Below are positions 49,601 to 54,710 of a stretch of DNA of 64,000 bases, piece by piece. This DNA comes from Lytechinus variegatus. Its lineage: Eukaryota > Echinodermata > Echinoidea > Temnopleuroida > Toxopneustidae. A program made the translations under genes and the position numbers. The DNA lies in assembly GCF_018143015.1 (NCBI RefSeq), contig NC_054757.1, positions 2,838,001-2,902,000 of the forward strand. Direction: 5' to 3'. Numbering within the stretch: the first letter of the stretch is position 1; the number at the start of each line of letters is the position of its first letter. The notes beneath the pieces were generated by a model. That model searched no databases, was not told where the DNA came from, and saw nothing but the letters and a program-made list of their open reading frames with translations.

Positions 49601-52600
49601 CACCCGATTTGAAGCAATTTTTGTTGACCAGATTCTCTCTCAAGTTGAACAGATTTTTTTAGTCCTAGTGCATAGGCAAATGTAACCATTTGTTGTTTTT
49701 TCTTTTGATGCAACCATTGTTATATTTTGAAGACAAATTTTTTGAAGTCTTTAAATCAGGAGTAAAAATAATAAAATGTGTTCTTCCTCTTCCTGACTGC
49801 TGTATAGCATTTGTTTACTTGATTGCGTAGTTCATTCATAATACAAAAAGTTAATTTGTGTCACCATGTGACTTGCGCAATAGCCATTATTGTACTTTGA
49901 TATTGGAGTCATTCTCTAAATTTAGACTCTTTATTGTGATGAATTGAATATTGGGTCTAAAGTCCAATAACCCAGTTCATGCTGTATGATGATCTGTCTC
50001 CAAGTCTGAGTAATATCAGGATTTCAAATTGTTCTGAGTAATATGTATACTTTGTAGTTTGTAGTAATATTTGAACTTAGATAACTTAGATTACTCAGGA
50101 TTAGAATTCAGTTGAAATTATTGTTTCTGTTATCTCATCTTTTGTCTTAATATAGATACATTCAATAAAGAAGCATGAACATGATTAGTTTATAAACTTC
50201 TATGAATGAAGGGATAGGAGACTTCAACCATTACTTGGTTTTGTATTATTGAACCTTAACAACCTGGTAATGCATATGTAAAAGTGAGGGAGAAGGAAAA
50301 ATATGGCATGAATCAATGAAAAACACAATTTTGCTGACTGATGCAATCAGGTGATGTACATGTAGATCGTGAAATTAGACGGCAAACTGCTATTTAATCT
50401 GTTAATTGCAAAATGGATACGATGAATGAATAATGATAGCAATTCCTTTTTTTAAGATTTTCCTTCCCCTATAGAGGTAATAACAATTACATTTTATTTT
50501 GCTTTGCAGATCTTTTGTCTACATGGTGGACTATCACCTTCAATCGACACACTAGATCATATCCGTGCTCTTGATCGTCTTCAAGAAGTACCGCATGAAG
50601 TAAGCAATCTATTGGCCAAATGTCTATATTGGTTTATCTAAAACCCGTCACACTAGAGGCGGAATGAGCCGGAATGCCGTCGGAATGAAATTCTTGGTAC
50701 ATTCCTGGATATTCGAAGCGCATTCTAAAAATTCTGACTTGCATTCTGAGTGCATTCCAGACATTCGGGTCCATTCTTGTGACCTGCCCGAATGTTTTGC
50801 TCATGTTCAAAACTTTCGAAGTGGAGAAATATCGAACGACATTCGAAGTGCATTCTGAGTGCTCTGTGACTGCATTCTAAATATTCTTACGACATTCTAA
50901 GAGCATTCGAGGCATTCTGATCGCATTCTAGAGAAAACCGAATCGCATAAAACGCGGCCAGCTGCTGTTGTAACGTCATTTGGCAGTAGAAGTCACCCGG
51001 TCATGTCGAAAAAAAGGAAGACATTTTTGCAAAAGTAGTGAAAATTTCAAATTCCCTCCCGAATGTGGCACAAATTTTGAAAATTCTTCATTCCTGCTGA
51101 TTCCGAATAAGTGTGACCAGGGTATAACATATTGAATATACATTAACATTCGAGTGAAAATGTTGGGTGTTACCCATTTCTTGTGAGAATATATTTGTTC
51201 GATCGGAAAGCTATCAAGTTAAATTTCTTTCTTATATATAAAGCTACATGTAGGCTGCTATATAAAAAGCCTAAAGGCCTTGTCTTCATAATTTTCAACA
51301 AGCAAATTGATGAGGTAATATATCTTTGCTTTTTCATTTGCATTTTATTGCACAGGAAATCATCTTTTTATTTAGATTTTATCTTCTAAGAATAAAAAGA
51401 AATGGATATTCGTCTGATTTAATGCATTAGATGTTAATTGCTGCAAATTATTTTATTAAAGGGGAAATGTATCAACTAAATGTATGAAAATATGACATAT
51501 TTATGATTTCAATATTTACAAAAGAAAAAAAAAGAAAGTGGGGATATGACATCAGCCCACATATTGAATATTCATGACTGGTTTGGTATCAGATTTTGAT
51601 GAAATGTTCAGCATTTTGCTTGATGAATTTTCCTCTACTTATTTAAATATAGTTATTTTCAGTCTGGATTACCCCCTTAAGCACAAAATGTAGCTTGATC
51701 GACAGGACTTATCCAGTGATGCCCTGTCCTTCCCACACCCCTTTACCTCCATCCTGGGGGTGTTTCACAAAGATTTAAGTATGACTTAAGTCGCACTTAA
51801 ATGCCGATGCGTACATGATATCCAACGCGCGATCTTAGTGATAGATACGCAGTAGTGTGCGTCCTCATGACAGGATCTGACCAATGCGATCAAGCCTTTC
51901 ATACCGTATGCAACTTGGTATTTAAGTGCGACACTGAGTCGTACTTAAATCTTTGTGAAACACCCCCAGGTCAGCATAAGAATATAAAAGAAACATGAAT
52001 TAAAAGAGTACAACTGAAACTGGCAACAGTTAATTTGGGAAAACAAATGTAACATATATCCATCAGCAATTATCATTTCAATTGATTCATTACAATATGA
52101 ATAATAAAAGAAAAGAAAAAAAATTTGAGTTGATTGTGTACATGTCCAAACTATTTGGAATCTCAATTGACAACTTTAATCGTCTACGATTGGATAAGAA
52201 ATTGAGCTATTGAGCCTTGATTTTTGAATAACTTGATTGATGTTTCTCCATTTGTTTATAGGGACCTATGTGTGATTTGCTCTGGTCTGATCCTGATGAT
52301 AGAGGTGGCTGGGGTATCTCACCACGAGCAATTGAGCCTTGATTTATGAATAACTTGATTGATGTTTCTCCATTTGTTTATAGGGACCTATGTGTGATTT
52401 GCTTTGGTCTGATCCTGATGATAGAGGTGGCTGGGGTATCTCACCATGAGCAATTGAGCCTTGATTTATGAATAACTTGATTGATGTTTCTCCATTTGTT
52501 TATAGGGACCTATGTGTGATTTGCTTTGGTCTGATCCTGATGATAGAGGTGGCTGGGGTATCTCACCATGAGCTATTGAGCCTTGATTGTTGAATAACTT

Positions 52601-54710: not shown

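Follow-up and report, generated by a model that had tools for sequence, protein, structure and literature searches.

Eight tandem partial copies of exon 5, each with its own splice acceptor, precede the real exon in a PP2A catalytic subunit gene of Lytechinus variegatus

Duplication across an intron-exon junction has been described in human CBS, where c.844_845ins68 produces two intron 7/exon 8 junctions; in the section of PMC2630376 dealing with this variant, the more distal junction is reported as strongly favored and carriers as having normal mRNA. That section writes "donor" for the site, and the title cited there speaks of 3′ splice site selection. Two other systems are relevant, as far as the excerpted texts describe them. 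In OGT, a decoy exon is recognized yet seldom spliced in, and its intron is detained (PMC12017769), and internal tandem repeats at an exon-intron boundary may cause novel introns in human genes (PMC2812944). The locus analyzed here, in a PP2A catalytic subunit gene, falls into the class of duplicated junctions exemplified by CBS 844ins68, in which the end of an intron is repeated in tandem along with the first part of the exon that follows it. This kind of duplication is known, and no acceptor array of this size, nor any in PP2A, was present among the open-licence literature matches listed.

The PP2A catalytic subunit (PP2A-C) gene occupies 43529..54710 of the forward strand, and its whole coding region lies within the window (the entire stretch of 64,000 nt that was analyzed). 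GT-AG joining of all seven coding exons (43529-43642, 46319-46528, 49076-49249, 50510-50599, 53237-53398, 54117-54235, and 54638-54710) gives 942 nt, encoding 313 codons plus a stop. Residues 10-313 of the product match solved PP2A C-alpha chains (best E value, 2.5e−206), and protein searches returned PP2A from many eukaryotes (best 120 of 4889 and best 120 of 7990 matches). PP2A dephosphorylates proteins and is essential, and a human PPP2CA isoform without exon 5 is known. For PP2A splice variants, the term "PP2A catalytic subunit" did not occur among the open-licence literature matches listed. Exon 5 is 162 nt long with both ends between codons, and its true donor, GAA/gtaagc (53399..53404; slash, exon/intron boundary), begins at 53399, where the preliminary description had placed it. 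Intron 4 (50600..53236; 2637 nt) contains all eight decoy units. A second PP2A-C gene elsewhere in the genome, if present, would ease the pressure on this array-bearing copy.

Several other elements were identified. A MITE-like inverted-repeat element lies in intron 4 at 51752-51971, with 34-nt arms at 51753-51786 and 51937-51970 that are 97% complementary; it scored 55.3 bits against Rfam MIR2646, far below the gathering score of 245. In intron 5, a degraded tRNA-like stretch on the reverse strand (54007-54061; 24.5 bits versus a gathering score of 29; E value, 0.058) is perhaps a tRNA-derived SINE. ARAGORN identified no tRNA in the window, and Rfam gave 0 matches at gathering level within it. 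A broken non-LTR retroelement is located at 21585-24418 (reverse strand). Its reverse transcriptase piece scored above the Pfam cut-off and its endonuclease piece 26.3 bits against a cut-off of 27.4, with relatives named craniofacial development protein 2-like. Among the best 120 of 482 matches to its frame at 23504-24415 (reverse strand) were a Lytechinus pictus record (91% identity over 95%), Strongylocentrotus purpuratus (83% over 80%) and, outside sea urchins, environmental entries (71%) and Penaeus monodon, the best named (68%). By eye, a 168-codon open frame at 38834-39340 (reverse strand) looks like the terminal part of a reverse transcriptase from a retroelement; it had no Pfam match.

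The array was located by TRF at 52204-53301 (period, 122; 9.0 copies; 97% matches; score, 2042), the top of 24 rows in the window, the next best of which scored 417. Elsewhere in the window there are a two-copy 69-bp tandem repeat with 100% matches (9393-9531), perhaps a very recent duplication, and a pyrimidine-rich minisatellite with a unit of about 68 bp (37991-38289). Counted from the intron side, units 1 to 8 of the array span 52205-53179 and are followed by the genuine copy. Eight tandem units carrying part of exon 5 are therefore present before the real exon, as the preliminary description had it, although the array ends at 53301 rather than 53302 and a unit length of 122 bp holds for seven units, unit 7 being 121 bp. 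Each unit consists of 57 nt of intron 4 followed by 65 nt of exon 5 (64 nt in unit 7), and the repeat junction joins exon base 65 to intron point 52205, with one base common to both breakpoints. The decoy exon pieces start at 52262 in unit 1 (52205..52326), 52384 in unit 2 (52327..52448), 52506 in unit 3 (52449..52570), 52628 in unit 4 (52571..52692), 52750 in unit 5 (52693..52814), 52872 in unit 6 (52815..52936), 52994 in unit 7 (52937..53057), and 53115 in unit 8 (53058..53179), a spacing of 122 except for 121 between units 7 and 8. The exon piece of unit 2 ends in TGA, and unit 3 has the same sequence. Unit 5 carries a G-to-D missense change, unit 7 has lost one exon base and is thereby frameshifted, and unit 8, with three differences, is closest to the real copy. 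In the latter (53180..53301), the closing 57 nt of intron 4 are followed by the opening 65 nt of exon 5, which starts at 53237 behind the acceptor TACAG. The array is not one of mutually exclusive exons, in which all copies are complete and bounded by both an acceptor and a donor: its copies break off after 65 nt (64 in unit 7) of the 162-nt exon and are without the true donor.

All eight decoy acceptors read TATAG and the real one TACAG, in agreement with the preliminary description, and all six real acceptors of the gene end in CAG while all eight decoys end in TAG. The 34 nt from −37 to −4 are common to all nine copies, branch-like sites included; candidate branch sites in the real copy are TAAC at −31 and TTGAT at −26 and −22. 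A search of a viral contigs collection, from which entries belonging to the window's own genome or close to it were possibly left out, gave 0 matches to the acceptor core. Using a simple acceptor matrix, each of the eight decoys scored 10.33 and the real site 12.28, and the other AGs in intron 4 and exon 5 (126 in total) scored ≤7.59. Of the gene's five remaining acceptors, three scored lower than the decoys (9.18, 10.19, and 4.45), and thus the decoys are good acceptor sites. Provided that this gene copy is real and expressed and is the one that matters, it follows from the sequence, as had been claimed, that splicing must choose among nine near-identical acceptors. Choice by score only would give 22 to 33% correct splicing and send 67 to 78% of transcripts to decoys, figures that serve as an illustration only. 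Since the decoys jointly win on score, another rule is needed, such as definition of a complete exon. The previously invoked preference for CAG over TAG is modest, and by score the eight decoys together would outweigh it.

Within each unit, the acceptor is followed at a distance of 43 nt, or 42 nt in unit 7, by a donor-like sequence, GAG/GTGGCT. This sequence lies at 52302..52310 in unit 1 (GT at 52305), with the GT at 52427, 52549, 52671, 52793, 52915, 53036, and 53158 in units 2 to 8, respectively, and at 53280 in real exon 5, where it encodes RGGW and is dictated by the protein sequence. The earlier statement that no unit holds a good donor was therefore partly wrong, as these sites come near the true exon 5 donor on two crude measures, a donor matrix (6.46 versus 7.04) and U1 duplex energy (−5.9 versus −4.5 kcal/mol). 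When the 635 GTs of the gene were ranked by U1 pairing, the GAG/GTGGCT sites took ranks 19 to 27 and the true exon 5 donor rank 76, and hence pairing energy alone does not make a donor. One real donor, at rank 18, ties with them. Donor consensus bases at +4 and +5 are absent from GAG/GTGGCT, which in the units is a candidate donor and no more.

The preliminary description had offered two options, exon definition and leakage into decay, but it omitted a third. Given that each unit also has a donor-like site, the units could serve as decoy exons whose acceptors and weak donor-like sites draw splicing factors and stay unspliced, detaining intron 4. Every unit offers a branch-like site, pyrimidines, TAG, and GAG/GTGGCT 43 nt on (42 in unit 7), elements from which a decoy exon of the OGT type might be built (acceptor, 10.33; donor-like site, 6.46 by the matrix; U1 pairing, −5.9 kcal/mol). 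For OGT itself, the excerpted account states that mutation of the weak decoy donors led to constitutive splicing and that the decoy is rarely spliced in (PMC12017769). We nevertheless consider such detention quite unlikely at this locus: the sites depart from the consensus at +4 and +5, the same motif is set in real exon 5 by its coding role, and 18 other GTs of the gene pair better with U1, three of them real donors.

The same pairs of sites could instead mark nascent introns, in which each unit acceptor and cryptic donor would bound a 43-nt exon (42 nt in unit 7) and the intervening 79-nt introns would be spliced. Eight candidate introns of exactly 79 nt can be drawn, and in potato RdRp, according to the part of PMC4974935 concerned, a duplicated 3′ intron end and 5′ exon start are now used together with a cryptic donor. 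However, the donor is poor here, and the normal C terminus is retained in just 1 of 255 possible small-exon sets, that of unit 7 by itself (42 nt; 14 added residues), so that splicing of such exons would almost always ruin the product. The acceptor is copied in 8/8 units and the donor is a candidate only; the array is not claimed as a case of intron gain, and this reading is very improbable. It is probably by chance that the deletion in unit 7 leaves a 42-nt stretch (52994-53035) that is the only lone small exon keeping the PP2A frame.

When each of the nine acceptors was joined to the true donor, only the ninth yielded the 313-codon product. Every decoy frame met a premature stop, as had been stated, after 217 to 224 codons and 203 to 1056 nt upstream of the exon 5/6 junction (8/8 decoys). 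Messages are usually targeted by nonsense-mediated decay when their stop precedes an exon junction further on by over about 50 nt, and the stops of all eight decoys lie in this range. By this usual rule, decoy-spliced messages would, on paper, be targets of nonsense-mediated decay. The exon running from decoy 8 to the true donor would be 284 nt, still an ordinary length, and exon length alone therefore cannot exclude decoy 8.

These stops could be put to use in dosage control, in which leakage into the decoy acceptors would generate decay-bound transcripts and the number of units would set the amount of PP2A. Besides the position of the stops in 8/8 decoys, the intact acceptor and invariant splice core (see below) of all eight and the confinement of CAG to the real copy are consistent with such a role. 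Yet a duplication of this kind yields early stops free of charge, because the intron piece in each unit suffices, and the term PPP2CA was absent among the open-licence literature matches listed for PPP2CA with decay, poison exon, or autoregulation. The earlier interpretation is partly supported as a whole; of its dosage part, what stands on paper is the occurrence of early stops far upstream of the later junction, and we regard dosage control as unlikely.

Across the nine copies, 10 of 122 columns vary, 5 of 57 in the intron part and 5 of 65 in the exon part. Decoys differ from one another at a mean of 3.4 of 122 positions and from the real copy at 5.0. Units 2 and 3 agree at all 122 bp, as might be expected if an assembly or base-calling artefact had inflated the array and the animal had fewer units. 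However, 8/9 copies are distinct and their differences occur in many combinations, which argues against simple assembly stutter, although it is no substitute for reads; an artefact appears rather improbable. In 7/45 pairs of variable columns (the unit 7 gap left out) all four combinations are present, which implies sequence exchange between units or repeated mutation of sites. At columns −43, +21, and +33, the real copy has states also found in some decoys, and the exchange, if it was not repeated mutation, probably included the real copy too. The real state occurs in no decoy at columns −3 and +16 only.

Three of the five exon substitution columns are silent, one is missense (unit 5), and one introduces a stop (units 2 and 3). 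The proposal that most exon differences are silent was partly wrong, as there is the unit 7 frameshift besides and the proportion is not clearly beyond chance (P = 0.075 versus random changes and 0.153 versus random transitions). With two terminal stops, one missense change, and one frameshift among eight, the decoy exon pieces do not look protected. These unprotected pieces and the column exchange patterns underlie the conclusion, retained from the preliminary description, that the array is young or homogenized. The 57-nt splice core of the decoys (−37 to +20) shows zero variation among the eight. Under random placing of the eight variable columns, this has a P value of 0.049 (linear) or 0.077 (circular) and is a weak hint of constraint on splice signals. 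The case for a functional role of the array is thus weak but not nil. One such role would be a copy-number rheostat, in which the units divert the splicing machinery to decay or to detention of intron 4 and their number tunes the PP2A dose. The C at −3 found in the real acceptor alone bears on this idea, which we hold to be rather doubtful; if true, changes in unit number would tune the dose of an essential phosphatase.

Two further patterns were rejected. Selection on the −3 base had a P value of 0.016 for one of the two private columns falling at −3, a position chosen post hoc and hence a hint only; for one falling anywhere in the 21 positions −20 to +1, the P value was 0.32. A two-unit higher-order periodicity, taken from alternating G/A at −43 in units 4 to 9, gave P = 0.50 at separation 2, and neighboring units were not clearly more alike (P = 0.11).

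RNA structure hiding the decoys was likewise discounted. The last four copies (52815-53302) were predicted to fold less stably than shuffled sequences (z = +2.06), with 100/100 shuffles at least as stable; the whole array gave −277.9 kcal/mol, a value obtained without shuffles at that length. A search for inverted repeats (seed, 9; ≥14 nt) in 50599-54131 identified seven pairs, none touching 52205-53301. Given the weak folding and the lack of an inverted repeat touching the array, a docking-and-selector scheme has no support.

On grounds of parsimony and by analogy with CBS, we favor, with moderate confidence, a minisatellite-like expansion that splicing mostly ignores and whose wrong choices are decayed at tolerable cost. 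A tandem duplication would have fused the beginning of exon 5 with a site inside intron 4 and would then have expanded in the manner of a minisatellite to eight extra units. Exon 4 would be spliced to the last acceptor and the decoys mostly ignored, as only at the last acceptor does an entire exon begin, of normal size (162 nt) and equipped with a donor and body of its own; CAG over TAG may help slightly. Wrong choices would produce early stops, and the resulting transcripts would undergo nonsense-mediated decay, a loss small enough to be borne. The anatomy, the reading frames, and the signs of exchange between units are observed; this history, the choice of the last acceptor, decay, and near-neutrality we infer. 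Variable columns have a similar density in the exon (5 of 65) and intron (5 of 57) parts, in keeping with decoy exon pieces that show no sign of coding constraint. Against it stand the illustrative 67 to 78% of transcripts that score alone would send to decoys, the invariance of the core from −37 to +20 among decoys, and the use of a duplicated junction of the same kind in potato, as related in the part of PMC4974935 that describes it.

With nine acceptors ahead of a single true donor, in a gene encoding an essential enzyme, the array is a natural test of 3′ splice site choice, in which the site closest to the donor lying upstream, the strongest site, or the opener of a whole exon could be the one selected. 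Leakage into the decoys, should it occur, would amount to a dosage control whose unit number could change fast.

Among the known systems, each as portrayed in the parts of the sources concerned, the human internal tandem repeats (PMC2812944) share with the array their position at an exon-intron boundary but have units that average 30 bp and are repeated four times, and they concern only segmental-duplication genes. The CBS 31-bp variable-number repeat, c.1444_1467+7 (PMC2630376), also spans an exon-intron boundary by its numbering and has single-base differences between units; it differs in lying on the donor side and in its 31-bp unit. In potato RdRp (PMC4974935), a GTAAG donor allows the copy to be spliced into an additional intron and exon, for which there are RNA reads, whereas the PP2A-C array has eight copies and a poor donor, and its use would lose the frame. 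The OGT decoy (PMC12017769) is likewise an exon-like stretch within an intron of a gene for an essential enzyme, with an acceptor and a weak donor, for which the array has a candidate, but it is one decoy exon with two predicted donors and two predicted acceptors, tested by deletion and blocking, while the PP2A-C array has eight units, putative decoy exons that copy the next exon. CBS 844ins68 is a tandem duplication across an intron-exon junction that, like the array, sets acceptors and partial exon in line; it is a human polymorphism of one extra 68-bp copy with studied transcripts, against eight units of 121 to 122 bp here. A CBS-like rule, in which an exon is defined through the donor and body that belong to it, would select the acceptor at 53237.
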